From Stictocephala bisonia (Eukaryota; Arthropoda; Insecta; Hemiptera; Membracidae), in assembly GCA_035578905.1 (NCBI GenBank), contig JAQJVL010000688.1, positions 248,001-312,000 of the forward strand: 64,000 bases of DNA, in the 5' to 3' direction. Each line of letters starts with the position of its first letter. The first letter of the stretch is position 1. The notes below the pieces were generated by a model. It saw only the letters and a list, made by a program, of their open reading frames with translations. It made no database searches and had not been told where the DNA came from. Below, one piece after another: positions 4,101 through 55,103 of this stretch. Made by a program: the position numbers and the translations under genes.

Positions 4101-7100
4101 CTACGCCAGTCTGGAACCGATTAAACTGTGCCCTTTCCCAACGAGGGAGGTTCATTCTACCTACAGGTATTGACGGAACGTTATTAAGGAACTCATTTCG
4201 TCCATCAAAACTGTTTCATGCTATTGCCCAGCTAGTACTGGACGAGAAATGTGATCAGCTCAACTGGAAAGCAGTACTTAGACGTGGGTTTCATAATAAC
4301 ATTATTAATAATAATTAGCCAAATAATTATTAATTTAAATTAAACATTTTAAATTAAATATCCAAGGTACATTAAGGATACTTAATAATAATAATAATCT
4401 TAATTTTCCAAAAAACACAAAATTACAAACGATACAATAAATATAATATCTAATACTAAGACTTTTGTGACATAACATATGACTTGTGCTCAGGCTGACC
4501 AAAGAATATACAGTATTGAACAGAATTACATTCACTGATTATTACAAAAATACAAGATAAAAAGTTAAGTAAGAATAGTGTTTTTACTTAAACAATAAAT
4601 AAAGGTTGTGTTTTTGGAAAATGAAACCTCCAAGTCAAGGCCTGTTTGGAGGAAATAGTATAAAATAATCATTCAATTTGTTGCAGTCTATGTAATACGA
4701 TGATTTAAATATATAGTAATGTAGGGCTTTATTAAATAATTTACGGCTTTTAATGAAGTTTACTCTAACTCCCAATAAAAAAATACATTAATTTTACCCA
4801 AGCATGTTTATTGAAAAAAAGTAAAAAGGAAAAAACACTTAGTGAAGATGTACTCGATAGCTCTAAACGAAGAGGTTATCTTATTATAAAACAAAGTAAA
4901 TCGAAAATATCAATATATAAATACGACGGGTTTAAAAACAAACATGGTTTGTACCAAACACATGTATTAATTGTTAATTATCTGGAAATTCTATACTTGG
5001 CAATTTTCTTCATTGTAGAACATATGATTTTATTATTGTATTTTAAATACTTCCAAATATTTTAAATATTAAAGATATTGAGTAAATATCTTTAATAAAT
5101 ATTAAATGAAACAAAGCCCACATATACAACATACACAGTTTCCACATATGTATATCCACAGTTTCCGAAGCTTATCTTCATACTCTTTAAGACGAAACCT
5201 TCTTTCAAACAACAATTTCATAATTATATACATTTTTAATTTCCAACTTATCTTGTTATGGGAATAATTGCTATCAGTAAGATATTATCATACTTGAAAA
5301 TAAACAATGTTCAGTTTAAATACATAATAAGTGGTAAACCAAACCAACACACCTATAATCACTTGTAAACGTTGGAAGCATTTGAATGAAAAATACATCT
5401 TGACTTACCGTTCTTTCTATTTAGCTTAACTTTAATAGACACTTTAAGAAACGTTACATGACATTATTGCTGATGAAAAATATAAATAATAAAAAAATTT
5501 AGCGGGGAATACTATTTTTTATGACGTTTATAAAATGAAGCTACTAACAATAAATAAAATACCACTGTACGTGTATTGGTAGGAGGGTGAGTCTATACCA
5601 CTGTACGTGTATTGGTTGGAGGGTGGGTCTATACCACTGTACGTGTATTGGTTGGAGGGTGGGTCTATACCACTGTACGTGTATTGGTTGGAGGGTGGGT
5701 CTGTACCACTGTTCGTTTATTGGTTGGAGGGTGGGTCTATACCACTGTACGTGTATTGGTTGGAGGGTGGGTCTCTACCACTGTACGTGTATTGGTTTGA
5801 GGGTGGGTCTATACCACTTTACGTGTATTGGTTGGAGGGTGGGTCTGTACCACTGTTCGTTTATTGGTTGGAGGATGGGTCTATACCACTGTACGTTTAT
5901 TGGTTGGAGGATGGGTCTATACCACTGTACGTGTATTGGTTTGAGGGTGGGTCTATACCACTTTACGTGTATTGGTTTGAGGGTGGGTCTATACCACTTT
6001 ACGTGTATTGGTTTGAGGGTGGGTCTATACCACTTTACGTGTATTGGTTGGAGGATGGGTCTATACCACTGTACGTGTATTGGTTTGAGGGTGGGTCTAT
6101 ACCACTGTACGTGTATTGGTTGGAGGGTGGGTCTATACCACTTTACGTGTATTGGTTTGAGGGTGGGTCTATACCACTGTACGTGTATTGGTTTGAGGGT
6201 GGGTCTATACCACTGTACGTGTATTGGTTTGAGGGTGGGTCTATACCACTTTACGTGTATTGGTTGGAGGATGGGTCTATACCACTGTACGTGTATTGGT
6301 TTGAGGGTGGGTCTATACCACTTTACGTGTATTGGTTGGAGGGTGGGTCTGTACCACTGTACGTTTATTGGTTGGAGGGTGGGTCTATACCACTGTACGT
6401 GTATTGGTTTGAGGGTGGGTCTATACCACTTTACGTGTATTGGTTGGAGGGTGGGTCTGTACCACTGTTCGTTTATTGGTTGGAGGGTGGGTCTATACCA
6501 CTGTACGTGTATTGGTTGGACGGTGGGTCTGTACCACTGTTCGTTTATTGGTTTGAGGGTGGGTCTCTACCACTTTTCGTGTATTGGTTGGAGGGTGGGT
6601 CTATACCACTGTTCGTGTATTGGTTGGAGGGTGGGTCTCTACCACTGTTCGTGTATTGGTTGGAGGGTGGGTCTCTACCACTTTTCGTGTATTGGTTGGA
6701 GGGTGGGTCTCTACCACTGTTCGTGTATTGGTTGGAGGGTGGGTCTATACCACTTTTCGTGTATTGGTTGGAGGGTGGGTCTCTACCACTGTTCGTGTAT
6801 TGGTTGGAGGGTGGGTCTATACCACTGTTCGTGTATTGGTTGGAGGGTGGGTCTATACCACTGTTCGTGTATTGGTTGGAGGGTGGGTCTATACCACTGT
6901 TCGTGTATTGGTTGGAGGGTGGGTCTATACCACTCTTCGTGTATATTAATACTTTAATGCTCAAAGCCTAATAACTAGGAGGGAATTATTACAAATATAT
7001 GTTTATTTACTTGATATTTTGTTATAAAAAGTATATGTAATTATTTTAATACTGTACATATATTGTTAATTATTTAGTTTGCCAATATTTTCGTAGTACA

Positions 7101-13418: not shown

Positions 13419-13700
13419 AGGTACGTGTATGGGTGGGTGGGTGGGTCAATACCACCGTACGTGTATGGGTGGGCGGGTGGGTCAATACCACTGTACGTGC
13501 ATGTGTGGGCGGGTGGGTCAATACCACTGTACGTGTATGGGTGCGCGGGTGGGTCAATACCACTGTACGTATGTGGGTGGGCGGGTGAGTCAATACCACT
13601 GTACGTATGTGGATGGGCGGGTGGGTCTATATTACTATACGTGTATGGGTGGCAGGGTGGGTATCAATACCACTGTACGTGTATGGGTAGGTGGGTGGGT
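13419..13700. repeat. 36-bp G-rich minisatellite, about 8 units
   Basis: Units contain CCACTGTACGTGTATGGGTG followed by GGCGGGTGGGTCAATA. The plus strand repeatedly contains GGGTGGGCGGGTGGG, which matches the classic G-quadruplex pattern (four G-tracts, one-base loops). Frames through it stay open only because of the repeat period. Confidence 0.92.
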
Positions 13701-19457: not shown

Positions 19458-19962
19458 GGTCCTTTTTCGTTAATTCACTACCACTACATTTTCCGTTACT
19501 TAACTACTATTCCTTTTTAAAGTCACAATTACGGTTAAGTCAGGTTAGATGACTTTTAAAATTGATCACAAACTGGTAAATCCAGTTACATTAGGTTAGG
19601 TTAGGTCAGGTTAGGTTAGGTTAGGTGGCTTCTAAACCACCTAACATCCTACTACAACCTAGTTATTGACAGGCTACAAAATGGTACGCTTCTTTTATTA
19701 TAATGCCATTGCTCAGTTTAAGAAACCATAGTGAAGATGCGTATAATGTTAACTACCCAGGTATGACTGACTTACCGCCGAGTGCGCTCTTCGCGTGTAT
19801 GTTCTTGGAATGCGATAAGATAAGGCCAGCGATATCGAATAAGCAATACCACTGTGAACATAAAAACGAGTGGGCAAAAGTATTTACAGCAATAGAATAT
19901 TTATCAAGCGGTAGTCTATTAACGGAAAAAAGTAGTGGTAGTCAATTAACGAGAAATATCCC
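19458..19962. mobile_element. MITE copy 2 with TATATTA target-site duplication
   Basis: The left end is GGTCCTTTTTCGTTAATTCA and the right end reads GTCAATTAACGAGAAATATC C; the outer 35-40 bp are inverted repeats, and a second inner inverted CCGTT/AACGG block follows. TATATTA lies immediately outside both ends (19,451-19,457 and 19,963-19,969), consistent with a 7-bp target-site duplication. Compared with copy 3 it carries about 170 extra internal bases, including a TTAGG run. The 149-codon ORF at 19,703-20,152 runs out of the element and is probably spurious. Confidence 0.75.
19586..19626. repeat. Interstitial TTAGG repeat
   Basis: TTAGG is repeated about eight times with one TCAGG variant. 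This is the arthropod telomere-type repeat unit, here inside MITE copy 2. Confidence 0.85.
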
Positions 19963-20204
19963 TATATTAATAATTATTATGACAATCTGTTTAATAGAAA
20001 ATGGTTTTTGCTTGTGTTTTTCAAATGACGGAAGTTTATCTGAAGTAAATGACAAGGATAATATATTCAACTTGAAATGTAACAAATGCAAATCAACTGT
20101 TAAGGAAATGTCTATATCATTATTTTCATGGAAACTTGAATTTCAACCTTAACTATGTCTCAATTATTTGTTTTTAATTACCAAAAGGACATTAGTTCAG
20201 TGTT

Positions 20205-20290
20205 GTGAGGTATGCACTAAAGAAAAATCATAGTAGCGATATTTATTTAGCTGAAATTAATCGTTATGGTTCTTGACACATTATTGTATT
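20205..20290 (+). pseudogene. Truncated Tret1-like leader/exon 1 relic
   Basis: GCGATATTTATTTAGCTGAA followed by ATTAATCGTTATGGTTCTTG matches the leader of the Tret1-like genes (GTGATATTTATTTAGTTGAA followed by TTCATTCGTTATGAC at 40,345-40,379). The ATG at about 20,263 continues MVLDT and then departs from the exon. It has no TRQYIAGLS and no donor, so it is a broken copy. Confidence 0.5.
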
Positions 20291-20639: not shown

Positions 20640-21630
20640 ATGTAACAACCTAAAAACCGTGTAACAAAAGAGGAATTTAAAAATGTAAATCTAGCCGACA
20701 GCCCTTGCTTCGCTGCGGGGTGGTTCTGTACTCTTGCTTACTCTTTCCTCCGTGGTTCTCTCTAAACCATAACACGAATAAAAAAGCTCAGTGCTATAGT
20801 AGTATAGACAAAGTGTTATAGTCTAGAAGACCCTATAAGTCTACTTTAGGGTGATGTAAATTGAGTAGAAATTACCTTAAACAAACTAAATTAGCCAAGC
20901 TTTTTTTGTCATCATATTTGTGTTTTATTTTTTTGAACCAGCAGTTTGAAACAAATCAAATTAATGATAATGATATTCTTATGGAAGAAATTAAACATTT
21001 AGGGGCTATCTCTACACCTTAGGAATGGATTTTCAAAGAAATCCTTTTTTAGTAGGTCTTTGTGATACAAAAGCTAAATTCCATACAAATTTTGTTAAAA
21101 TATGTTGGGTTGTAAAACATACAAAATAAACATGTTTATTTATTTACAAAACAGTTATTATTAATTTACCAAAATCAAACCAATGTTATCCTTACGGAAC
21201 AATCTTTTAGGAGAATTGTCTACCCCTTAGGATTATTTTATCAAGTTGAAAATACTGTATTTTTCCTATTTAGTCTACAACAATCATTTGTACCAAATTT
21301 CAACACTGTAGGATAATGGGAGGTTGGAGTATTGGTAATGAGTGAGTGAGTGCTTTATCTTTTATACATAGAGATGAAATATCTCAAACCTCATTTACAT
21401 ATCCCGTGAATCTATATTCATATTTCTCATTGCATTCTTTTGGATAGAAATATTTATTTTATGTATTTGTTAAACTACGTTAGGTTATATGAGGAAATTG
21501 GTTAGGAAAATATATTCAAATTGAAAAGGCTCACGTGCAAATTACGTTTATGGAAATTCTTTATCAATTTTTCATATAACCTTGAATTTTACAGCTAATT
21601 CTTTCTCATTTAATTGTTTCGAACCAGCAA
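20640..21630. other. Unassigned DNA upstream of the exon array
   Basis: Mostly AT-rich. A short GC-richer patch at 20,695-20,770 (AGCCGACAGCCCTTGCTTCG) looks like part of a dispersed repeat. No gene recognised. Confidence 0.35.
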
Positions 21631-21705
21631 AAGTAGGACTAACCTCAGAGAAGAGTAGCACGGTATAATCTTAAGAAAAATCGTAATTGCGGTATTTATT
21701 AAGTT

Positions 21706-21766
21706 ATGATTCTTGAATGTTTCAAGTGCTCTGGTTTGACTAGACAATACATCGCAGGACTTTCAG
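21706..21766 (+). CDS. Tret1-like exon 1, array unit 1 (donor intact)
   Basis: ATG, 20 codons (MILECFKCSGLTRQYIAGLS), one carried-over base, then GTACAT. The leader before it (GCGGTATTTATTAAGTTATG) resembles the leaders at 40.3 and 55.1 kb; it is the only unit that has one, so transcription would most likely start here. Splicing is inferred, not shown. Confidence 0.5.
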
Positions 21767-22239
21767 GTACATTACTTACTCATTATGATTCTTGAATGTT
21801 TCAAGTGCTCTGGTTTGACTAGACAATACATCGCAGGACTTTCAGGTACATTACTTACTCATTATGATTCTTTCGTATTTCAAGTGCTCTGGTTTGACTA
21901 GACAATACATCGCAGGACTTTCAGGTACATTACTTACTCATTATGATTCTTGAATGTTTCAAGTGCTCTGGTTTGACTAGACAATACATCGCAGGACTTT
22001 CAGGTACATTACTTACTCATTATGATTCTTGAATGTTTCAAGTGCTCTGGTTTGACTAGACAATACATCGCAGGACTTTCAGGTACTTACTTACCCATTA
22101 TGAATCTTCAGTGTTATAAGTCCTATGGTTTGACTACACAATAAATCGCAGGACTTTTAGGTACATTACTTACTCATTATGATTCTTCATTGTTTCAACT
22201 ACTCTGGTTTGACTAGACAGTACATCGCAGGACTTTCAA
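21706..22239 (+). repeat. Tandem array of seven copies of the Tret1-like first coding exon
   Basis: Seven units at a 79-bp period (the sixth starts 78 bp after the fifth) each carry the 61-bp first coding exon of a Tret1-like transporter plus about 18 bp of the following intron (GTACATTACTTACTCATT). ATGs are at 21706, 21785, 21864, 21943, 22022, 22100 and 22179. Units 1, 2, 4 and 5 encode MILECFKCSGLTRQYIAGLS followed by a GTAC donor. Unit 3 has MILSYFKC. Unit 6 has TAA in place of the Tyr codon (TTQ*IAG). Unit 7 has lost the donor (TCAAAC in place of TCAGGT). The single-copy exons at 40375 and 55104 encode MTFKCTGLTRQYIAGLS with the same donor and phase. No MFS body exon follows before 42,167. 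The array could supply alternative N-termini to a distant body exon or be an orphan amplification. Confidence 0.85.
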
Positions 22240-22310
22240 ACTATAAGGACGAACGTATAAGGACTCAGAGAGCAAAAAGTGCTTTGAAGTGTAAACTCAG
22301 CTGCAGAAAG

Positions 22311-22380
22311 TAAATATATATATATATATTTACTATATATATAGTATAATATATATAGTATAATACTATATTTATATTTG

Positions 22381-22422
<42 letters not shown>

Positions 22423-22425
22423 CAA
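22311..22425. repeat. (TA)n-rich tract
   Basis: Two TA microsatellite blocks separated by short AT-rich DNA. Part of an inverted arrangement (AAATATAAATATAG both sides), probably from slippage. Confidence 0.85.
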
Positions 22426-22540
22426 ATATAAATATAGTTGTAGATGGTATATAAAAATTGTTAAAAGTCACCAAGGACAAAAAATAAAAATGTTTAGTGA
22501 ATGGCACAGTAGTTTTTTCTGTCTCCTCATATATCCGTCT

Positions 22541-22882
22541 GGACCCTTTCCGTTAATTGACTACTACTACTTTTTCCGTTAGTTTAATACTACTACTTTT
22601 CTATCACAATTACAGTTAAGTTAAGTCAGGTTACGTTAGGTGTCTACTAAAGTTGATCACGTACTGGTAAATCTAATGCTTGATTTACCGCTGAATGCGC
22701 TCTGTATGTAAGTTCTTGGAAAGCGATAAGATAAGGCTAACGATATCAGATTCCTAGTGGATAAGGAATACCACAGTGGACGTAAAAATGAGTGGAGAAC
22801 AGTTTTTAGAGCAATAGATTATTTATCATACGGTAGTGAATGAACGGAAAAAGTAGTGGTAGTGAATTAACGGAAAAAAATC
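22541..22882. mobile_element. MITE copy 3 (most compact)
   Basis: The left end is GGACCCTTTCCGTTAATTGA and the right end GTGAATTAACGGAAAAAAAT CC, giving terminal inverted repeats of about 40 bp with a second inner CCGTT block. About 340 bp, collinear with copies 1 and 2. No transposase ORF. Confidence 0.8.
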
Positions 22883-23619
22883 CATCTGTTTTTCTGTTCA
22901 CCTTCGGCAACACTGCTCATTTCAGGCCTTTAATGTTAGAAATACTATCGAGAGTATATTTTTAATTTTATCACAGAGTCACCAAAATACATTTTCAACG
23001 CTGAAACTATCTATAGATTTTATTGAATAAACTTAAAGTACATAACCATTTTAAAATTTAAGTGGGAACTTTTCAATTTACATACTTTAAACATATAAAA
23101 CTTCAATAGATTTTTTATCTTCAATTCAACTCCTTATCTTATCTATAACACTTCAATATTGAACCCTGTATCGAAAATTAAAAAAATTCAATTGTGGGGT
23201 TTTTAGTAGTAAACTTTTCAGTAATGTTCAATGGCTCTTTTTATCTATGCCTTGTTTTAAGAGCTTATTGCATTTAACATTACTTTGACAGATACATTAT
23301 TAAATGGTGAGTTAGAGATAAGTACGATGGACCTTAACCTATTTATATTAGTTTGCTACATATAGTTAAAATGAAATACAGCCATCTCGTTAAAAACGAA
23401 TTTCTCCAGGGACTATTATAGCCATTATTATAAGAAATGACTCGGTTTAGAGATAAATGAGACATTCACGCCTTATCCTAAAAAATGACTTAGAAACATA
23501 TAGCCTATCACAACCAACAACACAATCATGATCTATATGAACTGGGGGCATTGAGGTAATATTTTCCAATAAACAAAGGTAAATAACACTGATAAAAATG
23601 AAGCAGGGTCCGAAGTGTT
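22883..23619. other. Unassigned intergenic DNA
   Basis: AT-rich, no recognised gene or repeat. I looked for a degenerate MFS transporter body here, downstream of the exon array, and saw none. Confidence 0.4.
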
Positions 23620-24690: not shown

Positions 24691-27330
24691 CTATGTGATA
24701 TTTGAACGTTCCGCCCCAGCACTGGATTGCATCTGCAGTCTAGATTGAATTAGGGCATAATATAAGGATCTCATTAATTTTTCATCACAAAAGTTTTTCA
24801 GAAAATAAAATTTCCTAATGCCTGATTTTAATTTGCCATGTAAAAAATTAATATGTTTTTTCCATGAAAGCTTTTTGTCCAAATAAATACCAAGGTATTT
24901 GAAATTGTCTACTTTTTCTATACTTACACAATTACAATTATCACCTGAACATAAAGTTTCATGGTATTTTAGAGGTTCGTTAAAGTTAAAATCGTGAAAA
25001 TCAAAAATCATAAATTTTGTTTTATTTACGTTTACTATTATTTTATTTTCAAAACACCAATTTCTTAAGGTTTGTATATCCTTCACCATACAACTCCACA
25101 CATTTTGATAGGAGTTCTCAGCATAGAAAAAAGCAATGTCATCAGCAAAAGCACTTGGTTGGGAAAAAATGGTTTTTTTTAGCAGATCGTTTAAGAAAAT
25201 TAAGAATAGAGTTGCAGACAGGACAGATCCCTGTGGGACTCCTGCTTTAATGATAAGAGGTGAGCTTAAGGTGTTACAGATTTTCACCTGTTGCCTGCGA
25301 TTGGTAAGGAAACTTTGAAACCAGCTTAGGGCTGTTCCTCTGACTCCAATTGAATTTAATTTATTTAAAAGTATTTCATGGTTAACTAGATCAAAAGCCT
25401 TCTTAAAATCAATAAATAAACCTGTCATCTTTTTAACATTATTAAAATTGTTAAAAATTGTATTTGAAAAATTAAGCAGCGCATCTTCAGTAGATCTTCC
25501 TGCTCTAAAACCATATTGATGTTCACTAAAAAAGTTTGCCGAATTTAAGAATTTAACTAATCGTATTTTCATGATTTTTATTCAAATATTTTAGAAAAAA
25601 TAGACAAAAGTCTTATTGGTTTCAGATTATTAAGTTTCACTGACGTTCTTTTCTTAAAAATAGGAACTACTACGCTTAGTTTTAGTTGTCCAGGGAAAAC
25701 ACCGTTTAGAAAACTTAAGTTGATTACATGAGTTAAAATTAAAGAAATCTCTGACGCTATGTTCTTAATTAGAATAGTATTAAAATTATCAAAACCGCTT
25801 GATTTTTTATTTTTTAATCCGTTAATAGTAGAAAGTACTTCGTTTTCTGTCGTTGGAGTAATAAATATGGAGTTCAAACTTTGCGGAAGTGGCGCCTCGG
25901 TCAAGGTTGTGTTGTTATCAGAAGGACCTGTTTGAGTTGAGATAAGGTAATCGTTAATCATTTTCGCTACTGTTTCATGGTCAGAGATAGTTTCACCGTT
26001 ATCTAACTCTATTTTGTCAACACCCTTTTTCACATTACCACCACTTAACTTGTTTATTACATTTCACTGCATTGTGATATCCCCCTTACAGTAGTCAATC
26101 AATTTAGAATAATACTGATTCTTTGTAAAATCTATTTCTTTCGATAAATTTGTAGAAAATGTCTTAATATAATTTAAAAAGTTCTGATCATAAGGCCTTT
26201 TTTTTGCTTATTTTATAAAGGTGTTTCTTTTTATCCAATTTTTTAATCAATCTAGACGTTATCCATGGACTACAAGATTCAGCTTTACTCAACCTATTAC
26301 TAATATTTACAGTAGACTTACAACTATTTACAGATTCAATTAGCGTTTTATGAAACATATTAAAACATAACCTGAAGATGGAAGCTTTGCTTTCGAAAAC
26401 GTTTGTGTTGTAATAAATTTTATATTGGATTTACGATCTATGAATTGTATTATCTTATATTAAAACATGTATTTACATTGTCCACTTTAAAACAGTTACT
26501 CCAATCAATAGCTTGCAATTTAATTTTTAATGCTGCAAAATCAACTTTGGTACTCACACAAGTCTTATTTGACCTATTTAAGAAATTAGCTTTCCTGCGT
26601 GTCGAAAGTTCCATTTTTAGACCTAAAACGCAGTGATCCGTTAAATTAATGTCAAATACTTCACTTTTAAATTGATTTAAAAACTTGTGTCGGATGAAAA
26701 TATGATCTATACACGTTTTCGAACTAACTGTAATTCGGGTTGGCTTATTTATAAATTGTGCAAAACCATGGCTATGTAAAAGACTTAAATAATTTTGAGA
26801 GATTTGCTTTTCACTTAATGTATCTAAATTTATATCTCCGATGATAACTGTATTATTTTGCAACTGATTCAGCTTGGCACTCAATTCATTTACAAAATCA
26901 TATTCCGAAAAGCTGTGCAATCTATATAAACAAAAAAGATTTAAGAATGAATTTTCATAATTTATTTTTATGAGCAGCGAGTCGTAAAAATAAATTATGC
27001 TGTAATAAAATTAATATTTAGTTCAACTGCATTTATATGTTCCGCTACGTAACACATGACACCTCCAGCTCTGTAGGTGTCATTACACTTATAAAAAACT
27101 TTATAACCCGGAATAGTGTAAAAGTTAATCTCTTCACTGTTGATCCAAACTTCACTAAAAACAATAAAACTAATATTTTTTTAAATTTGATTTAATTCTA
27201 ACAAGAACGTGTTAAAATTACTTCGCAAGCTCCTGATATTGGCATAGATTAAATTTAAACTATTTGAATCTGTATTGAAAAATATATTTACATCATTGAT
27301 TTCGTTTGGATTTGACATATTTATCTAGCT
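24691..27330 (-). pseudogene. LINE 1 EN-RT polyprotein relic
   Basis: The endonuclease starts near 27,320 (NLIYANIRSLRSNFNTFLLE, then SEVWINSEEINFY) and is broken near 26,930. It continues at 26,920-26,450 with TVIIGDINLDTL and CIDHIFIRHK, then NLTDHCVLGLK. The RT runs 26,033-25,578 (KKSSGFDNFNTILIKNIAS, FLNGVFPGQLKLSVVVPIFK) and 25,572-24,691 (YGFRAGRSTEDALLNF, LFIDFKKAFDLVNHEILLNK, GVPQGSVLSATLFL, FADDIAFF). The FADD catalytic motif is intact. The C-terminal part is frameshifted near 24,730. Not functional as it stands. Confidence 0.85.
26357..26468. mobile_element. 88-bp insertion nested in LINE 1, flanked by 12-bp direct repeats
   Basis: ATATTAAAACAT occurs at 26,357-26,368 and 26,457-26,468. 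The 88 bases between interrupt the endonuclease/RT linker that is continuous in LINE 2. The insert carries AACCTGAAGATGGAAGCTTT, then GCTTTCGAAAACG. A 12-bp target duplication points to retrotransposition of a short RNA or of a 5'-truncated element end. Confidence 0.65.
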
Positions 27331-34413: not shown

Positions 34414-37400
34414 GAAATAATGAAATAAATGAAATAATGAAATAATGATTTATTCCTTGAAATAATACATGATTATAGACAAAAAATTACAATTCTCGGA
34501 ATTAATCAACCACAGTTTTCCAGTAGTAGTGGTTGATGAGTCCAGTCCATTTACATAATTGACTGATAAAAATGGCTCACTGTGGTATCTGCTTAAATAG
34601 TAATAAAGATATATTTCCATATATACAGGAGTAATACTACAAATGTAGACTAAAACATTTTTATATTTGAGACAAATACCCAAATATATCAAATATAATA
34701 TACACAAATTATGTCATATGTACTTAGAATAATATACCATCATAACTTTAAAAAAATCAGCAGGAAAAGCATCAAATGAAAATATAAATATAAATACCTA
34801 TTTAACACAGTATTTACATCAATATATAATCTGTTGAAATAGGTTAAATAATGAAAATTATATATGCCACTGAATACTATCATTTATATTTCAAAAATAC
34901 AAAAAAGGAGCAAAATCAGCTCATGCGATATATTTCTCCAAAAAAGAAGTGTCATGTAAAGTAAACAACCAATATTTTACCCTTTTGCAAAATGCTTTTA
35001 AATTTGGACTTTCTTTAATTTTTGAATTTAGTTGATTAAAATAATTTGGTCCAAGATATATATATAAGAGTGCCTGAAGAAAAATTTATTAACTTTCGGT
35101 TTTATGAATAGTCTTTGAATGTTGCTTCTAAGTTCAGGACGCACCCTGGTTGAACCTCTATTTCCACTCCTTATATAAAATTGCTTTAGTGTTTTGAAAA
35201 TAAACAAATGTTGTAAAGGCATTACACCCGTTTGACAATATAAAGGAAAAGAATGCTCTTGTCTATTTTTCTTAAGAATTAATTTAATAAATTTATTTTG
35301 AGATTTTCTTAAATTATTGATGAGATATTTATAAGTTCCTCCCCAGCATGAAATTACGTACTGCAATCTAGACTGAATTAAGGCATAATATAGAGAAATT
35401 AAAAGTTGTGTGTGACAAAAGTTTCTTAAAAAGAAGAATTTTCTAACGTTAAATTTAATCTGTCTGTGCAATTGTAATATATGTTTCTTCCAAGATAAAC
35501 GTTCATCAAGATGGACCCCTAAATATTTGAAACTGTCAACCTTTTCAACTGGTACACATTTACATCCAATACTACCTTTATAGTCAATAGAGTGCTAATA
35601 TAGTCTCTCTAATAATAATATAGTCATAATATATATAATATATTATGATTCTCTAATATAGTCATAATATAGGATAGTCAAAATTAAAACTCTTGTAACC
35701 AAAATTAATAAATTTAGTTTTTGAAACATTAACTATCATTTTATTATTAATACACCAGTTTCTCAGAGTAATCAAGTCTTTGTTCATTTTCGAATATACA
35801 GTTTGTTTGTTTTTGTTGTTATAGTTAAAAGCGATGTCATCTGCAAATGCACTTATTCTTCCAATAAAATGTTGCTTTAGTAAATCATTAATAAAAATTA
35901 TAAAAAGATTTGCTGATAGTACAGCACCCTGAGGAACACCCCTTTTTTATAACAAGCGGGGCCTTATCAAATTGTCTTGTATTTTAACCTGTTGAACCCT
36001 ACCACTGAGATAACTCTGAAACCACTGCTTTGCCACACCCCTGATACCAATAGATTCCATTTTTTCTATAAAAATTTCGTGGTCAACAAGATCGAATGCC
36101 TTCCTAAAGTCAATAAATAAACCTGATGTTTTCATGTTTTCATTCAAACTAAAATAAATGTTGTTCACATAATTCAATAAAGCATCCTCAGTAGATTTTG
36201 CTTTTGTAAAACCGAATTGAGCTTCATGTTGAAAATTTATTGAGTGAAGATAATGGATTAACCTTACTTTCATACACTTTTCAATTGTTTTAGAAAAAAC
36301 GGATAATAAACTAATTGGGCGTATATTATCAATATTGTAAGAATTTTTCTTTTTCAAAATTGGTACAGTTATACTATTTTTTAGTAATTTGGGAAAAACG
36401 CCAGTAGAAAAGCTTAAATTTATAATGTAAGTTAAAACTGGAGCAATGATCTCTGAAACATGCTTAATTAAAGCAACTGGTACTCTGTCAAAGCCAGTGG
36501 ATTTTTTATTTTTTAAATTTTTAATAATATTTAAAATTTCCCGTTCATTTATTCTATCGATAAAGAAGGAATGTGGTAGATTTGGACTGTCATGCATTTG
36601 AGTCACTGCCTGGCTCTTGTTGTCAGTGAAATTCTCAAGTTCGATAAGGTGGGTGTTTATTGTGTCGGCAATTGTTTTCGGATCACTTATACATTCCCCG
36701 TCCTCTAAGACTAATTTGCTTACATTTTTACTGTTTTCACAACCTGTAAATTGATTTATAATTGTCCATTGTTGACTATTATTCCCATTACAATTATTTA
36801 TCAAATTAGTATAATAATTATTCTTGGTATTGTCTATATCAAGTTTTAGGGTATTACAAAAGGAATTGTAATACCGTTTAAAAACTAAACCATACGGTTT
36901 CCTTTTTTGTACTTTATACAACCTTTCTCTTTTTTTAAGTTTATTTAGAATGTTATTAGTTATCCATGGACTTAGAATTTTAGCTTTACTTAGATTACTG
37001 TTATTATTACTAACTGATACATTTCTAACAACTATTTCACTAAACAATGTGTGGAATGTTTCGTAATATTTATTTACGTCGTTACATGAATAGATTGAAT
37101 TCCAATTAACTTCGGATAGGTTAAATTTAATTTTTTCATAATTATTTATCAACCTAGTTATATTTTTATTTCTTTTTTCTTTATTGTCTGAAACATCAGC
37201 AGTCACTCCCAACATACAATGATCTGTGTGATTCCTATGTCAAATATGGCTGTTTTGAAAATTTCTGAATTTCTAAACCTTACAAGAATATGATCAACAC
37301 AACTTGGTGAATTTGGTGTAATACGTGTTGGCTGATAAACAAGTGAATAGAATCCACTGTTACTAACTAAATTATAATATTTACTAACATATTGGTAACC

Positions 37401-38936
37401 GCTCAATATGTCAATGTTGACATCACCTATTATTATTGTATTTAAATTTAATGATTGTAATTCCGCTTTAAGCTCTTCAATAAAGCTAATTTCAGAAAAT
37501 CTTTGCATTCTGTATAAACAAATTAAATTAAACTTAAATCTTCCAACTTTTACTTCCAACAATAAACAATCAGCTGTTATCATTTGACATTCCTTCTCAA
37601 TTATTTCATAATCTTCTCTTACAAAACAAACAACACCCCCAGCACGATATGAGTCATTACACTTACTTATTGCCTTAAAACCAGGTATTTTATATAAATT
37701 TAATTCTTCACTATTGATCCATACTTCACTTAAAATAATAAAGGACAATTTATTTTGTAATTTATTAATTTCTGCGAGAAACGTATTAAAGTTACTTCTC
37801 ATACTTCTAATATTTATACATACAATATTTACATTATTAATGGAGTCAAAGAAATTTGTATCTAGGCTAGTGTATGATTTACATGAATGCACTTTTTTAG
37901 ACATTTAGTTTGTTCAATAAGTAGTTTAAAATAAAATTAGCTTTTTCTAAACTAAAATACTGCAATAAATAACAAGAAGAAGAAATTATACATTCTCTTA
38001 ACAGTTTAATTTATATTTCATATATGCTTAACCATCAAGATCACTAAGCCTGCTTATTTTGTAACATCTTTCCCCGTCATTTTTTCTTACAAAGAAGTTT
38101 CCCTCTCTGACTCATACATATTTGTAGTTTCTCTGTTTACATTTTTCCCTTAACTGAGCTAGGAACAGTTTATTTTCTGGCGACAAGTGTTCATTTAAAA
38201 ATATACGGTGACTTGGAAATGATTTGTTTACCTCGTTTGCTGTCATTCCTTTTTTTCCCTTAAAGCTGGCGATCCAGGCTGCTTTCTGACCACGAGTTTG
38301 GAACTGTACGATGAGTGACGGCGCCTTGTTTATCTTGAAGGATGGGACCCGATGGACTGCCATGACCTCGTTGTCTCGTAGCTCCTCGCCGATAGCTTTA
38401 CCCACGTCTCGCAGTATGCTGATAGGGTCTTCTCCAGGTGTCATAGGGAGTCCGCTGATCTCTAGGTTGCATCTTCTTGAGTAAACAATCCTTGAGTTCC
38501 AATCCTCGCATCCTTACTTGAAGACATGATACTTCATCGTTGAGACGCTTGTTTTTCTTCTTCAGATCTTCATTGCTTTTCCTCAACTCAGCAAATTCTT
38601 TCTTCATCTCAATCATTAATTTGTTGGACGTATCCATTTTACCGGACAAAAATTGAATGGTCTGTCGAAACTCCTCCGTCTGAGATGAATAAGTTTTCAG
38701 CTCATTGAAAACATCTTTTTTAAATGACTCGAGAACTGAGACCAGAAACTCCTTAGTTAAAGGGGCTGTTTCTGTTGAAGACTTGCTACTAGTCGATGCG
38801 GAGCACTGTTCACATTTCCACTCTTTATTTCCAGCTCGGATTTTCACTCCTTCAGTTTTCACACACTGGATATGAAAATACCGGCCACAGGATCCACCAC
38901 ACTTAACTGATAACTTCACCTCTTTACCCACCCGCC
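34414..38936 (-). mobile_element. LINE 2: non-LTR retrotransposon, same family as LINE 1
   Basis: The 3' end lies at 34,414 with a tail of ATTATTTC/ATTTCATT repeats after AATAAATCATTATT. 3' UTR about 34,420-35,000; EN-RT 35,028-37,904; ORF1 38,112-38,936. It is more intact than LINE 1, with only a few frameshifts, but its ORF1 is cut inside the PHD finger, where a minisatellite begins. A short ATAGTCATAATATA repeat cluster at 35,595-35,680 interrupts the RT. Confidence 0.88.
35028..37904 (-). pseudogene. LINE 2 EN-RT polyprotein relic
   Basis: EN: MSKKVHSCKSYTSLDTNFF, VNIVCINIRSMRSNFNTFLA, SEVWINSEELNLY, TIIIGDVNIDIL and CVDHILVRF, with a frameshift near 37,215 (in the ...TDHC region). RT: FTKAKSTEDALLNYVNNIY, LFIDFRKAFDLVDHEIFIEK, then GVPQGA after a shift in an A-run at 35,945, then FADDIAF near 35,830. 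The C-terminal region is open at 35,471-35,028 (FFLRNFCHTQLLISLYYALI, YVISCWGGTYKYL). Catalytic residues remain, but at least three lesions block a full product. Confidence 0.87.
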
Positions 38937-38940: not shown

Positions 38941-39455
38941 CATACACGTACAGTAGTATTGACAAATCCCGCCCATATACGTACACGTACTGTGGTATTG
39001 ACCCACCCGCCCACCCATACACGTACAGTGATATTGATACCACCATACGTGTTTGGGAGGGTAGGTGGACAATACCACTGTACGTGTATTTGTGGGTGGA
39101 TGGGTCAGTACCACTGTACTGTAAGGGTGGGCGGGTGGGTCAGTACCACTGTACTGTAAGGGTGGGCGGGTGGGTTGGAACGTCAATAACACTGTACGTG
39201 TATAGGTGGGTTGGGTGGATCAGTACTACTGTATGGGTGGACGGGTGGGTCGTCAAAACTATATGTATATGGGTGGGCGAGTGGGTCATCACTGTATGTG
39301 TATGGGTGGGTCATCATCACTGTATTTGTATGGGTGAGCGGGTGGGTCATCATCTCTGTATGTGAGGGTGAGTGGGTTGTCAACACTATTTATGTATGAG
39401 TGGGTGGGTGGGTCATCACTGTATGTATGGGAGGGTGGGTGGGTTACGTAGATCG
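38937..39455. repeat. G-rich 36-bp-type minisatellite inside the 5.1-kb insertion
   Basis: Units containing CCACTGTACGTGTATTTGTG and GGTGGGCGGGTGGGTCAGTA, grading into ATCACTGTATGTGTATGGGT units. Same family as 5.6, 12.7, 13.4, 41.3 and 56.0 kb. ORF1 of LINE 2 reads straight into it on the minus strand. Confidence 0.88.
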
Positions 39456-39535: not shown

Positions 39536-40338
39536 AATATATATTATCTATGTAAAATAAGTTAAATATACCAAATGGGACGAGACGTTCTTATTATGTA
39601 ACTTATCAGTTAAGTTACGCTTTGTTAGAAGTAAATTTTTTATCAATATACAAAATATAAGTATTATTTAAAATTTGCATTGTTATAAACAAATAAAAAA
39701 AAAACATACAACATACTCTCTAAAAAAGCAGATTTTTTAAATATTAAAACAGAATGCTAAATGATATGAACTACCTTAATTTCACAATGTAAGTCTATTA
39801 CATATATTTTAATTGCAAGTTATTGTCAAGTGAATGCAGCTTTTGTAGATATGCACTATGAAAGGAGTATTCAAAATTCCAATAGAAAATCCTATAACAG
39901 AACATTTTTATCTTACAGGAACAATATTACATTTAAAAACCTGATAGTAAATGCAAAGGTTCTGTTACTTTTAATATCCCTATTATAATTTACCCCAAAT
40001 ATTAAAACCTAATCACAGAACGAGGATGAAGGCCGAGTTGGCATGCAAAGCGCACAGGGTTGTCCCTTAGCCTGAATTACTACTTCTCATCAAAATATTT
40101 TGAATAAAAAGGGTTACTTCTTATGAAGTTGCGTTTTACGAGGAAAGTGCAAAGAATAATTCACCACAAATTTCCAAGTCTCACATGCAACTGAACTTTT
40201 AAGTAAATGAATAAATGAGTTTAATCTTAATCACTTGTCACGGAACCTTGGTTTAAAGTAATTATTTCTGACTTATTTGTTTCTAATTAGCCGTCGAACC
40301 TCAGCACAGCGTAATGAGGAGTTCACTCAAGTACAACC
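39536..40338. other. Upstream region of Tret1-like gene A
   Basis: Collinear with 54,257-55,067. It contains GCCGAGTTGGCATGCAAAGC and GCACAGGGTTGTCCCTTA, with a weak match at 14,110-14,155. I see no clear TATA box. No coding exon recognised. Confidence 0.4.
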
Positions 40339-40359
40339 ATGGAAGTGATATTTATTTAG
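40339..40359 (+). promoter_or_regulatory. Conserved six-codon uORF before Tret1-like gene A
   Basis: ACCATGG context, MEVIFI then TAG, 15 bases before the main ATG at 40,375. Identical in copy B at 55,068-55,088. If the transcript begins upstream it would reduce initiation at the main start. The TSS is not visible, so its role is inferred. Confidence 0.4.
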
Positions 40360-40374
40360 TTGAATTCATTCGTT

Positions 40375-40426
40375 ATGACTTTCAAGTGCACTGGTCTGAC
40401 TAGACAATACATAGCTGGACTTTCAG
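40375..40426 (+). CDS. Tret1-like gene A, exon 1
   Basis: Fifty-two bases: 17 codons plus one base. TRQYIAGLS is the pre-TM1 motif of the family. The donor TCAG|GTACAT has a non-consensus C at intron position +4; the same donor is used in gene B and in the seven-copy array, which supports this start. Confidence 0.85.
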
Positions 40427-41069: not shown

Positions 41070-43470
41070 ATATTGCTCTAAATATTACATTCTTCAATTA
41101 TGTTTTGAAAATGGTTTTTAGTCGGATTCCAACTAATAATAAAAAAAAAAAAAACACTATTGAGTTTCGGTGATCCTAAGAATTTTTTATTGCCGATAAC
41201 ATTAAAATAAATAAATTTATACATTGTTAACTACGGACTTCATCATTTGACACTATATTCATTGTCATCATTACAATTGCTATGAGCAATATTACACATA
41301 TGTATGGGTGGTTGATGAGTGTCTATCACCGCTGCACGTGTATGGGTGGTTGATGAGTGTCTATCACCACTGCACGTGTATGGGTGGTTGATGAGGTCTA
41401 TCACCGCTGCACGTGTATGGGTGGTTAATGAGTGACTATCACCACTGCACGTGTATGGGTGGTTGATGAGTGACTATCACCACTGCACGTGTATGGGTGG
41501 TTGATGAGTGTCTATCACCACTGTTTGTGTATGGATGGGTCTATCTTCACTCCATGTGTGTGAGTGGGTAGTGAGGGTCTATCACCACGGAATGAGTGTG
41601 AGTAGATGGTGTGGCTTTATAACCACTGCACGAGTATATGGGTGGGTGGTGAGGGTTTTATACCACTGCACCTGTATGGGTAGGTAGTATCTATAACAAC
41701 TGCACGAGTATGGGTGAGTGGGCCATCGGTGGCCTGCTCATTCTGTATTCAAATTGTAGAAAGAAGATTATTTGAAACATAAAATGGGATTAACAACAGA
41801 TCAATCCTGTGACTTTGTAGAACGTATTTCACAAATTACCTAATAATTTTTTATATAATGAAAAATGACCTAATTTTCTTAACTTACTTAAAATAAAATT
41901 TTACAAGTATTGTGGTCAAGTTAAGTGTACTACCTGAGGAGCTTCTAAAAGGTATTAAATAAAACAACATAAGATAAACTGATATAACATTTTTAGGGGA
42001 AATTGAGCGTTTTTCTTCATTAAAGGGTATATAATAAAATCTGATATTTTTATATAAATATATATCAAAAGCAATCAAATTGGATGATTGAATTGGGAAA
42101 ATTATAAAAATTTTATATGAGTTGAAATTATAGTAGAAAAATCAGTAATACTTGTAATATTTTCAGCAAGTATCAGCATTGTGACGAGTGGCAGTTGCTT
42201 CGGATGGATGGCCCCTGTTCTACCTCATCTATTGGAACCAGATAGTGAAATTCCACTCACTCCTCAACAAGCTCCTTGGATTGTCTCCATTATAGAGTTA
42301 GGAAATGTTATTAGTGCATTACCCGCTGGTTATGTGGTAAACTACATAGGCCGCAAACCTACAATCCTTCTGACTGGCCCACTCTATATCTTGAGCTGGC
42401 TACTCATCATTTACTTCCCTTCAGTGTTTATGTTAGGACTAGCCCGTGTTCTCCAAGGGTTCACGATGGCATTTACACTATCAGCAACTCCAGCGTATAC
42501 TGGGGAGATCTCCAGCAAATCTAACAGAGGAACTATCACCAGTTTAGCTAACACTTCTTGTTATCAGCTCGGATACCTCATAGAGTACGCTGCTGGACCA
42601 TTACTGTCCTTTAAAAATTTTACTTATTTTACTCTAGCACTTAATATTCCCTTACTAGCGATCTTCAGCTTCCAACCTGAAAGTCCCTATTACCTTGTTA
42701 TGATAGGCAAAGACGAAGAGGCACGAAAGTCTCTTCAGTATTTTAGAGACCTCTCATCTGAAGAGCTGGAAGAAGAACTGGTTGAAATAAAGCAGACCGT
42801 TTCTATAAGTAAGAAAACAAGACTTCTTGATGCTATGGCTACTCAGAAAGACAGAAAGGCTCTGATACTGCTGCTAGTGATATCACTGATGAAGAATCTC
42901 AGTGGATTAGTAGTAATTAGTGAATACTCCAACCAAGTATTTGCCATAACTCCGATAGAAGGAATATCAACAGATATGATCACTGTAGCCCTCGGGCTCA
43001 CCATGTTTGTTGGAAGTTGTGTGGGTGCGCTTTTCTGTGACATTATAGGAAGAAGGTGTCTTCTACTAACCACAAGTATAGGTTGCCTGGTCAGCCAATT
43101 TTTGACTGCTACATATTACCTTTTGCTTTTAGAAAGTCCCTACAAAGAAGTATATACATTTAGATGGATTGCACCAGTTTCAATATTACTCTACTTTGGT
43201 TTATGCACTGCCATGACTGTGCGTAGTTCGTACACGTGTGAACTATTCGAGACACATACTAGAGGTATGGCTGCTAGTATTGCTCAGCTAGGAAGTACAG
43301 TATCAGGTTTCATAGCTATGTTGACCTTTCAGCCCACCATATATTGGTTCGGAATATATTCTAGTTTTTATCTCTTCTCGTTTTATATTTTAATATCAGT
43401 TATATATTTTTACTTCAATGCTCCAGAAACAAAAGGCAAGTCATTTGATCAGATTAGGAAGAAGTTGTAA
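40375..43470 (+). CDS. Tret1-like facilitated sugar (trehalose) transporter A, two exons
   Basis: An MFS sugar-porter (SLC2/Tret1 family) carrier, expected in the plasma membrane with 12 helices. Exon 1 is 40375-40426 (MTFKCTGLTRQYIAGLS + one base, donor GTACAT). Exon 2 is 42167-43470 (acceptor TAATATTTTCAG), giving 451 residues. Joined N-terminus: GLSASISIVTSGSCFGW, the expected start of TM1. Motifs: NYIGRKP (about 76-82), NRGT (136-139), PESPYYL (188-194), DIIGRR (309-314), ELFETHTRG (376-384) and C-terminal PETKGKS (437-443). The usual QQ of the QQ-x-SG box in TM7 is KN here (MKNLSGLVV), so substrate preference may differ from classic Tret1. AATAAA follows at 43,641. It differs from gene B at about 18 residues, clustered around 134-167. 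The intron holds a TA repeat and a minisatellite. Confidence 0.93.
41022..41064. repeat. (TA)n microsatellite in the gene A intron
   Basis: About 43 bp of alternating AT; the allelic position in copy B is longer (55,756-55,804). Confidence 0.92.
41300..41735. repeat. Minisatellite in the gene A intron
   Basis: Units such as ATCACCACTGCACGTGTATG followed by GGTGGTTGATGAGTGTCT, about 36-38 bp, degrading toward 41,735. Family core ACTGCACGTGTATGGGTGG. The number and order of units differ from copy B (56,042-56,463). Confidence 0.88.
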
Positions 43471-44084: not shown

Positions 44085-45120
44085 TGAAGCACCCCTGGAG
44101 ATCTCCAGATTTTCTCAGAGGAAGAAATAAGAGAGTTGATTTCCTCTATAGCAGAAAGATGGTTGATTAACCAGTATTGACGGCATCTTTCAAAAATTTC
44201 AGTTGCATGCTAGTAGCACAGTGAAACAATGTCTTCAAACATTCCAAAATAATATACTAGCTACATGGAATTTTCTTAAAGCATTTAAGCGATCAAAACT
44301 TGTAGCTGTTCTTAAGCCTGGCAAAGATTCCGATCGGGTGGAAAGTTATTGCCCTATATCTCTTCTTAGTGTTTGCTATAAGTTGCTAGCTATAAGGCTA
44401 ATATACGATAGAATATCACTTATTCTTGATTTTAATGTCCCAGTTGAGCTGCCGGTTTTCACCCTGGCCGTTTTAGCGATTAGGTCCTAGCTCTTACCTC
44501 CTTTGTCGAGAATGGAATTACACAGGTTTACGGGAAATGGGGAGGTGCGTGGCATTCAAGATTGTATGGAATTCTTTATAGTGCCTCATGACGTCTTGTC
44601 TCTGGAGGACATATATTGCACAGCACTGGGAGCCAAGGAAGCGGAGTTGACATGGGAGTTCCACTAATAGCTCTCATGACCCTATTAAGTTGAACATCAA
44701 TCACTTTAGTATGTATGCCATGTAGCCATACGGGAGCACAGTATTCAGCAGCTGATCTAACAAGTGACAAAGCAGTAGTATGCAGGACGTGTGCGTTGGC
44801 TCCCCACGTTGTTCCTGCAATATGATGTAGTACATTTGTCCTGTTATTCATTTTAGCTTCTGTTCTTTGAAGATGGAGTTTAAACGTCAGCGCTGAATCT
44901 AACGTAACTCCCAGATACTGTGCATAATCAATGTAGTGGAGTTTTACATCATTAATAAGATGTTCAAAGCAAGTCGGTTACTTAAGTGGAAACAAGTGAC
45001 TTCCACTTAGCTTCGAGATTCTAAAGTATTCTTCGAGGTCTTTAACGTCACATGTTCAGTAGCTCTGAGATCCACTTAAGACCCACTTCCAAGTACTGGT
45101 TTTTTGTTGGGCAGTCAAAT
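44085..45120. pseudogene. Rearranged RT relic in copy A
   Basis: The plus strand at 44,203-44,460 encodes FKRSKLVAVLKPGKDSDRVE and SYCPISLLSVCYKLL, the RT N-terminal part. The minus strand at 45,075-44,576 encodes DLEEYFRISKLSGS, YAQYLGVTLDSALTFKLHLQ and AEYCAPVWLHGIHTKVIDVQ, the RT C-terminal part of the same type of element. The two halves face each other, so the element was inverted or rebuilt. Related to the fragment at 63,498-63,806. Confidence 0.75.
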
Positions 45121-45189
45121 TTCTCATAAAATTCTTGGTAGGCCTTATTGGGAATAGTTTTAAAGTACTTCTTATCGATCGTTTAATAC

Positions 45190-47543
45190 TACGTTTAATT
45201 TTTTACGTTTTGAAATGGTCTATTACCTCTCCCACGAGAGTTACGGCCATTTCACAAACGGCTATAGACAACATTATAACAAACGTGCATGAAGTAGATG
45301 TCAGTGTGGTCAACACAGCTATCTCAGACCATTACGGTCAACAGGCCATTATCAGTGACTGTTATCTGGCACGAGATCCCGTAACTAAACGAACATTTAG
45401 AGACACTAATCCCAAAAACCTAGCTCATTTAGACGTTTCACTAAAAAGAGAGAGTTGGAATTGTATCAATGTTATTGATCCCATTTCGTTACAATTTCAA
45501 AATTTTGAAAATTGCTTGAATTTTCATTTTGATGTAAATTGCCCAGTAAAGACACTGAAACCAGCACCAAAGAAAACGGGATGCAAATGGATCACAAAAG
45601 GTATCCTAACATCAAGGGAAAAGATGAAATTTCTCACAAAAATATCTAAATACACTACAAATTTGAATTTCAAAAATTTTTTCCAAAATTATAAGAAAAT
45701 TTACAAAAAAGTCATTAGAGCGGCTAAAGCTTATGATGTAAATAAAGCAATAGCCACATCGAAAAATGTAGCAAAAACTGCCTGGGCTATCATAAACAAT
45801 AGTGTTGCACAAAAAAACAAACCAATTCAACTTCAAATTAGCGGAGAACAAGTCTGTGATGAGCGCAGGATTGCGGAGGAATTTAACGCCTTCTTCGCAT
45901 CAGTAGATACTGATCTAGGACTTCGTCCACGGAGAGTCCAGAATCCTTGCTTATCAAGACTGAGTCCATTAGCTTCTTTGGCATTGGCTCCAGTCACGGA
46001 ACATGAGATTGAGAAGGTTATCAATGAGCTTGCACCCAAGAAGTCGAATGACGTGAATTACGCATCGACATGGCTTTTTAAAAAAATGCTCCCACCATAT
46101 TCTAACGCCCTTGGAACATTTGATTAACCTTTCCTTCTCATCAGGCGTTTTCCTTCGTCTTTGAAAACTGCTAAAGTGACACCAATCTTTAAGAAAGGTG
46201 ATTCTTCCAGCATTAAAAATTACCGACCAGTTTCAATTCTACCAATCATTAGTAAAATTTTTGAGAAGCTTTTCCTGTCCCGAATGCTTGGTTTCTTAGA
46301 AAAACATAGTCTTCTCTCGAAAGACCAATTTGGTTTTAGAAAAGGTCTGTCAACAACTGACGCAGTCATACGATTAGTAGAAACGATTGTAGAAGGGCTG
46401 GAGAGTCGGAAAGCTACAATTAGTGTGTTTTTGGATCTCTCCAAGGCTTTTGACTGTGTTGACCACGACATTCTGCTTCAGAAACTACACACCTATGGGA
46501 TCCGAGGAGTACCGCTGCAGTGGCTAGAATCCTATCTAACAAAAAGAACACAAATGGTTCAAATTTCCGAAGTACGATCTGGATATAGATGTCTAAGGTA
46601 TGGAGTCCCACAGGGATCGATACTTAGCCCTCTCTTATTCCTGATATACGTCAACGAAATTGGTTCATCACTACTGCATGGGTCACTCGTGCAGTATGCT
46701 GATGACACGACTCTCTGCTTTAAAGAAATTACAAATCAGGAGCTTGAAATCCATGCATACATGGATCTGAACAACTGCATTCAAAAATTTCAAGAACTAA
46801 ACCTTAACACTAATTCGACTAAGTCCAATTTCATGAAGTTCTGTTTACGGAAGTCAGATTCCGAAGGAAATTTGACAGTGGCAATAGATGAAAATGAAAT
46901 TGAGGAGTTAAATTCAACTAAATTCCTCGGAATATACCTAGATCGGGGTTTGACTTGGAATATACATGTTGACAGTCTTTGCAAAAAGCTTTCATCAAGC
47001 ATTTATGTTTTGAGAAACTTAGCAAAATTTTGCCCTAACCATATAATGATGACAGCTTATCATGGTTTAGTTTACAGTCATCTCTCATATGGTCTGGCTT
47101 TGTGGGGAGGCTGCTCTGCCACAAACCTGACCAGAATATTTAGAATTAAAAAAATGGCAGTTAGAATAATTAGCAAATTACATTATAGAGAGTCGTGTAG
47201 GCCAGTATTTAAACGGTTAAACCTGCTGACGTTGCCTTGCCTCTATATTTTAGAGACAGCAACATATTGTATGTTTAAAACTGCACTGACAAGAGGCAGA
47301 GATATTCACAATCATCATACTAGAAGCAGAGATATATACAGAATTGGAAATCACAGGACGGTAGTCTACGAACACCTACCCTCACAGATTGGTGTTCGTA
47401 TAATTAACAGACTCCCAGAATGTATTAAAAATGCTACAACGCCCAAGGCGTTTAAGAACCGTCTCAAGAAATGTTTGGCCAAACTGGCATTTTATAGTGT
47501 AGACGAGTTTTTTTCATATAATTGGGAAGCCACTGAATTTTAA
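45190..47543 (+). pseudogene. LINE 3 EN (C-terminal) and RT coding region
   Basis: The first part, to about 46,127, carries SPTRVTAISQTAIDNIITN and AISDHYGQQAIISD (EN end), then a linker with KWITKGILTSREKMKFL. A double frameshift at 46,105-46,160 lies in the HLINLSFSSGVF region. From 46,161 the RT is open for 460 codons: TPIFKKGDSSSIKNYRPVSI, FGFRKGLSTTDAVIRLVE, VFLDLSKAFDCVDHDILLQK, YGVPQGSILSPLLFLIYVNE, YADDTTLCF and FLGIYLDRGLTWNIHVDSL. All catalytic motifs are intact, but the element lacks ORF1 and most of EN. Confidence 0.88.
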
Positions 47544-50866: not shown

Positions 50867-51050
50867 ATTTAGGATAACTACATATGTAAGTTTTTATATT
50901 TATTCTTATTTATTGTACATATATTGTAATAATCCATATTTATGTTTGCATGTTTGTGTTCTTTGATTATTACTTACAGATTATTTATTTAGGCATAGGT
51001 GTTATAGGTATTATTTTATACATACATTTATATATACAAATTAACTGCAT

Positions 51051-55067: not shown

Positions 55068-55088
55068 ATGGAAGTGATATTTATTTAG
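55068..55088 (+). promoter_or_regulatory. Conserved six-codon uORF before Tret1-like gene B
   Basis: Same MEVIFI-stop in ACCATGG context as in gene A, 15 bases before the main ATG at 55,104. Confidence 0.4.
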
Positions 55089-55103
55089 TTGAATTCATTC
55101 GTT

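Follow-up and report, generated by a model that had tools for sequence, protein, structure and literature searches.

The 64,000-nucleotide stretch of the membracid Stictocephala bisonia genome considered here (GenBank assembly GCA_035578905.1, contig JAQJVL010000688.1, positions 248,001 to 312,000 of the forward strand; hereafter the window) contains at 21706-22239 of its plus strand an array of seven ATG-anchored units that resemble the first coding exon of a Tret1-like (facilitated-trehalose-transporter-like) sugar porter of the SLC2/MFS type. The array is probably a duplicated promoter and first exon of such a gene that stands without a transporter body, was overgrown by a minisatellite and is now likely an orphan without product. 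Two intact Tret1-like genes lie farther downstream on the same strand, as an initial annotation of the letters had described: gene A, with exon 1 at 40375-40426 (MTFKCTGLTRQYIAGLS plus 1 nt) and the transporter body in exon 2 at 42167-43470, and gene B, with exon 1 at 55104-55155, identical to that of A, and exon 2 at 56893-58196. Among the outcomes which that annotation offered for the array, an orphaned relic fits best.

The annotated coordinates of the array hold both when the units are read individually and in Tandem Repeats Finder, which reports 21704-22238 with a period of 79, 6.8 copies and 92% match. The units start at 21706, 21785, 21864, 21943, 22022, 22100 and 22179, with spacings of 79, 79, 79, 79, 78 and 79 bp; the 79-bp unit first described thus stands, with the correction that unit 5 has 78 bp. 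Units 1-5 each comprise an open 61-nt phase-1 exon (20 codons plus 1 nt) followed by a CAG/GT donor and, between the donor GT and the next ATG, a tail of 16 bases (15 in unit 5). Unit 1 (21706-21784) contains the exon 21706-21766, encoding MILECFKCSGLTRQYIAGLS plus 1 nt, with the donor GT at 21767, and is the sole unit directly behind a promoter copy. Unit 2 (21785-21863, donor 21846) and unit 4 (21943-22021, donor 22004) are identical to it across 79 bp, and unit 5 (22022-22099, donor 22083) has the same exon with an altered post-donor tail, shorter by 1 bp. Unit 3 (21864-21942, donor 21925) displays four substitutions within 5 bp, giving MILSYFKC instead of MILECFKC. Four of the five intact exons are therefore identical, units 1, 2, 4 and 5 encoding one and the same 20-residue peptide and unit 3 a peptide with two changed residues. 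Unit 6 (22100-22178) shows 10 exon differences from unit 1 and an in-frame TAA, and unit 7 (22179-22239) shows six and breaks off exactly at the donor, with no GT. The five donors, the intact state of units 1-5 and the two lesions had all been read correctly, and the decay of the last two units, by a stop and a lost donor, argues for a relic.

A core 39-mer, searched across the window with up to three mismatches, gave seven matches, five of them exact (units 1-5) and two with three mismatches (genes A and B), and none in 100 shuffles. A DNA search of the whole 1.68-Gb assembly, which skips very common words, found the array once, the other matches being only the first exons of A and B. Built of highly similar 79-bp units joined head to tail, the array is itself a minisatellite, or variable-number tandem repeat, a class in which a motif some tens of bases long recurs head to tail with little divergence. 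Its unit length, copy number and percent identity all fall inside the range of the other minisatellites of this genome, from which it differs in that the unit covers a complete coding first exon including the donor.

The similarity to the downstream genes extends 5′ of the array, beyond what had first been annotated, into a shared promoter region, and a further, decayed copy of this region lies at 19962-20268. The promoter/5′ untranslated region (5′UTR) copy adjoining unit 1 (21412-21705, plus strand; hereafter P2) is homologous throughout to the decayed copy (P1), matching its 19962-20250 part over about 290 bp at 68% identity in blastn, and over its last ~150 bp to the regions 5′ of A and B. 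Together with the exon, 21558-21786 matches 54954-55175 of B at 70.5% (blastn); the match to the region 5′ of A is weaker, with only a 66-bp piece over the BLAST threshold besides the exon. In pairwise alignment, 21558-21705 agrees with the other promoter copies at 73-75% of aligned bases, gaps set aside. P1, likewise on the plus strand, runs to an ATG and matches 21412-21703, 40235-40377 and 54911-55106 in blastn; the remainder of exon 1 after this ATG is not recognisable by blastn or alignment, and the loss of the exon from this neighbouring copy is a further reason to read the array as a relic. In all, four promoter/5′UTR copies on one strand stand against two transporter bodies, P1 and P2 being about 1.1 kb apart. 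Two copies of a short inverted-repeat element (19460-19960 and 22545-22883, with ends like TTTCCGTTAATTGACTACTACTAC) bracket the block formed by P1, P2 and the array, and possibly aided its copying or rearrangement.

No transporter body other than those of A and B was found in the 154 kb of the contig that were read (198001 to 352000), reaching 72 kb upstream and 82 kb downstream, which bears out the annotated lack of an adjacent body and favours the relic interpretation. Here a search by tblastn with 13 family proteins at E ≤1 recovered bodies only in A and B; besides these and the first exons, a single 41-residue match appeared (E 0.5), 42.6 kb before the window. A family profile run at full sensitivity gave at best 2.2 bits outside A and B, and the bodies that follow 3′ of the array on its strand within 82 kb are those of A and B alone. 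Parts of the intron of A, its body, 3′UTR and upstream DNA, used as nhmmer queries without the minisatellite part of the intron against everything before 39.5 kb, gave a single hit, a weak one (E 0.0027) of intronic sequence at a site 44 kb upstream of the window. A hidden body remnant between the array and A was also sought by tblastn with protein A at E 10, by the 13 proteins at E 1, by the family profile and by nhmmer, and rejected. Neither the intron nor the body nor the 3′UTR of A resembles the sequence 3′ of the array (22239-22545), and unit 7 ends at its donor as though severed from the intron that once followed it; both features favour a relic. A junction of unit 7 with exon 2, derived from complementary DNA, was likewise discarded, as the sequence after unit 7, compared with the start of exon 2, scores 10 against a shuffle mean of 11.9 and 951 of 1000 shuffles are at least as good.

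The length of the unit restricts what the array could encode. Since 79 is 1 modulo 3, each retained unit shifts the frame, another reason for preferring a relic, and read-through of the donors in units 1-5 stops in the next unit. A transcript skipping the donor of unit 1 opens with a 29-codon open reading frame (ORF), and the ORFs read through from units 2, 3, 4 and 5 have 38, 29, 29 and 40 codons, each ending in the next unit; that of unit 6 stops inside unit 6, and that of unit 7, with 44 codons, ends beyond the array. A protein repeat or N-terminal extension is ruled out by the frame shift and by these stops. Use of the CTTTCAG/GT between units as both acceptor and donor would bring a 79-nt exon into the transcript and so shift the frame. 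From transcripts keeping several units, the transporter could start only from the last included ATG. A raised translation dose, the quantity that the initial annotation supposed might be reset, is unlikely: a transcript from P2 that keeps at least two units opens with an ORF ending after 29 codons. Alternative N-termini, also envisaged, are poorly supported, because units 1, 2, 4 and 5 specify the same 20 residues and units 2-7 are without promoter or 5′UTR; the copies do not encode the different sequences expected of mutually exclusive coding exons. Each ATG in units 2-7 has just 2 bp of upstream-like sequence ahead of it, next to the tail of the previous unit, so that the sequence offers these units no visible start site of their own. 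If transcribed, the array would hence add hardly any protein diversity and at most lower output. That every unit keeps the phase of the body exons is true but uninformative, being automatic once the donor is copied together with the exon.

The abundance of similar repeats makes a minisatellite over an exon unsurprising. Counted with one Tandem Repeats Finder setting (period 20-200, at least three copies), such arrays number (i) nine in the window, including this one, (ii) nine in the flanks (90 kb), of which one or more entered the count twice because the end of a stretch cut through them, and (iii) 16 in a 200-kb sample drawn at a single offset from 20 other contigs, equal to 8 per 100 kb and 6.1% of bases. 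Extrapolation suggests of the order of 10^5 arrays genome-wide, among which some are expected to lie over exons, and this richness again favours the relic. Decayed edge units around near-identical inner units are the expected outcome of slippage and unequal exchange. The hairpin of a single unit was examined as a driver of slippage and is not exceptional (DNA fold z -0.44 for unit 1 and 1.08 for unit 3, two of the seven units being folded).

Taken together, these observations fit a history in which a promoter and first exon were duplicated and the body was lost or never present. Copying slippage or unequal exchange would then have multiplied a 79-bp segment made of the 61-bp exon and 18 bp comprising the intron start and the last bases before the ATG. 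RNA from P2 would take unit 1 as its first exon; splicing would discard units 2-7 as part of the intron, or their retention would supply upstream ORFs that lower output. Coding constraint on the exon presumably outlasted the origin of units 6 and 7, and units 1-5 may then have been recently re-homogenised or expanded, leaving a locus that today most likely yields no protein.

The comparison of the array exon with exon 1 of A leaves some doubt about a mere relic. The 3′ part of the exon and its donor are plainly homologous to A and B, and the equivalence of the exons first proposed holds for exon kind, phase and donor, whereas the counterpart of the ATG is ambiguous. Three MAFFT alignments including the 5′UTR of A place the array ATG 10-13 nt 5′ of that of A, and one in which A starts at its ATG places it 9 nt upstream; in pairwise alignments, the ATGs of units 1, 3 and 6 fall in the 5′UTR of A and that of unit 7 falls on the ATG of A. 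The array may thus start slightly 5′ of the old start, in frame, or 9 bases may have been gained after the old ATG. The first 14 intronic bases are identical between the array and A/B. For the comparison of constraint, unit position 13 to the donor plus these 14 bases were used, the first 12 bases being dropped for want of a clear counterpart; the samples are small, the tests overlap one another, and the intronic stretch was picked where the similarity ends.

Within these bounds, several results weigh against the relic interpretation. Over exon and intronic bases the array differs from A at 6 of 63 positions, compared with promoter differences of 33/133 for A (Fisher p 0.013), 37/135 for B (p 0.005) and 32/127 for P1 (p 0.012); for the exon alone, the array-A difference is 6/49 (p 0.07 against the promoter of A, 0.03 against that of B). 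Across 15 codons, the array and A differ at 1 of 34 nonsynonymous sites and at 3 of 11 synonymous ones (p 0.04); if the array branch alone had evolved neutrally, 5.2-5.7 nonsynonymous changes would be expected on it, the chance of one or fewer being 0.02-0.035. With A as outgroup, the derived changes over 49 sites amount to seven in unit 6, four in unit 7 and zero in the consensus of units 1-5 (p 0.016 and 0.125). Together, these results suggest that the exon retained a coding function beyond the separation of units 6 and 7, and that it was probably used throughout most of its history and may be used even now; gene conversion from an A-like gene may also have contributed to the similarity between the array and A.

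The main rival to a relic is hence a distal alternative first exon that is still live, an interpretation that the coding-type constraint and the 14 shared intronic bases favour and that nevertheless appears unlikely on balance. RNA from P2 would run to the donor of unit 1 (or of units 2-5) and skip to the acceptor of A at 42166 (or to that of B), so that MILECFKCSGLTRQYIAGLS would replace MTFKCTGLTRQYIAGLS as the N-terminus and the extra units would be intron or an adjustable ballast of upstream ORFs. Strand and phase are shared with A, whose acceptor lies at a distance of 20 kb, in a genome of 1.68 Gb; the spacing of P1 and P2, about 1.1 kb with no body found between, fits the copying of a promoter with its first exon as in Arabis PEP1, which together with Drosophila hydra provides a precedent. 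Against it, exon 1 of A itself sits between the array and the body, P1 has lost its exon, and the promoter copies are about equally diverged, P2 showing no sign of special retention.

Two further proposals assign a role to the repetition. In the first, which seems quite improbable, the bodiless P2 and its array would give A an additional, remote start that alters the N-terminus, the first exon having become a minisatellite of identical serial donors, and the number of units, variable by slippage between generations, would set how frequently inhibitory upstream ORFs are included in transcripts, a mutable control of sugar-transporter dose. In the second, about as improbable, the multiplication would itself be functional, copy number tuning donor choice or upstream-ORF load and hence transporter dose. 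Five successive exons, all intact and with donors and four of them identical, and the short ORF that results whenever a donor is skipped are compatible with such tuning; nevertheless, similar arrays are common in the genome, near-identical units are usual for young tandem repeats, two of the seven units are broken and there is no adjacent partner body.

An assembly artefact, by which the array or its copy number would be inflated, is very improbable: although three complete units and the exon of a fourth are the same, units 3, 5, 6 and 7 are each distinct, the array spans only ~535 bp, and the sampled contigs reach 7 Mb, which suggests that long reads were used. Least probable is an array still joined to an undetected body exon farther 3′ or of another family, for which the 82-kb extent of the 3′ search leaves room, but no match above 2.2 bits to the family profile occurs outside A and B in the 154 kb read.

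Genes A and B both consist of a full Sugar_tr/MFS body in one exon (Pfam Sugar_tr 4.2e-57 for A and 2.8e-57 for B) with a matching short first exon, and, with 96% identity over 4.4 kb, they are a recent tandem duplicate. Of the named sequences, those closest to A are Tret1-like proteins from two leafhoppers, Homalodisca vitripennis and Cuerna arida, with 44-52% identity (52% for the body to a Homalodisca Tret1-like protein), and the best solved relatives of its body are GLUT-type transporters (GLUT4, E 4.6e-26). Proteins of both leafhoppers share and align with the short N-terminus of A, ending in ..QYIA (e.g., MVKCQSRGLVNQYIAG in Cuerna), and back the short first exon of A and B, in which MTFKCTGLTRQYIAGLS is followed by A from the split codon; these relatives were compared as proteins, whose records cannot show a repetition of the first exon. 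The body exon of A provides the transporter acceptor nearest 3′ of the array.

Several other features of the region deserve mention. The bodies of A and B (42169-43467 and 56895-58193) show 21 nonsynonymous differences, 11 of which cluster in body residues 101-150 beside a single synonymous one (NTSCYQLGYLIEYAAGP vs NYSCLWLGHLIEFAAAP), a hot spot suggestive either of gene conversion from a third copy or of divergent function in one part of the transporter. A G-rich minisatellite family with units of 28-40 bp (TACCACTGTACGTGTATGGGTGGGCGGGTGGGTC-like), located at 5559-6944, 13421-13700, 39073-39428, 41301-41720 and 56045-56460, also in the flanks and in other contigs, is present in intron 1 of both A and B and may be a dispersed, mobile or templated repeat. 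A 36-bp repeat at 5554-6971, a multiple of three, is open over more than 460 codons in two plus-strand frames, probably by chance, as the repeat has no stop in those frames. Retrotransposons of the non-LTR (long terminal repeat) type with reverse transcriptase, in various states of decay, occupy 24691-27010, 35028-38513, 45069-47543 and 50267-53432, and near 38.4-39.2 kb a retrotransposon contains what by eye we take to be a PHD-type zinc motif. A search with a retrotransposon protein gave no match exceeding 70% identity in the best 120 of 2077 hits, in which the leafhopper Homalodisca was the first species to appear by name.

As a relic, the array would cleanly illustrate how start codon, coding exon and splice donor can be multiplied together by a tandem repeat with no new gene as the result, and it would caution that gene predictors may link exons of this sort to bodies far away. 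Were it still active, a lone promoter would serve a cluster of first exons, and a repeat that mutates fast could regulate how much of a nutrient transporter a sap-feeding insect makes; differences in copy number among individuals would allow a test of such control. A literature search on leafhopper sugar-transporter duplication, dual-specificity splice sites and UGT1-type arrays returned no matching paper.

Clusters of tandem first exons are already known from hydra, UGT1A and PEP1, where the copies reportedly have start sites of their own, whereas array units 2-7 appear to have none; the array shares with such clusters several homologous copies on one strand, seven units of which five retain an open exon and donor. 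In Drosophila melanogaster hydra, nine homologous initial exons lie in tandem, at least four of the nine with their own start sites (PMC9013439). Both cases concern an insect and a first exon multiplied in tandem by recurrent copying, but the array lacks a body in place and, with 2 bp of upstream sequence before units 2-7, any start site in sight there. Human UGT1A comprises alternative first exons, each with a promoter, that encode the substrate-binding site (PMC9013439); were the array to feed A, it would likewise place homologous first exons 5′ of shared downstream exons, although its units are nearly identical and encode only 20 residues each. In Arabis alpina PEP1, the FLC orthologue, a tandem copy comprises part of the promoter, the first exon and part of the first intron, a region of ~2 kb duplicated once, from which two overlapping transcripts with different starts arise (PMC7927791). 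The array differs in its 79-bp unit, present in seven copies behind one promoter copy; PEP1 nevertheless exemplifies the copying of a promoter and first exon apart from the rest of the gene, as may have happened to P1 and P2.
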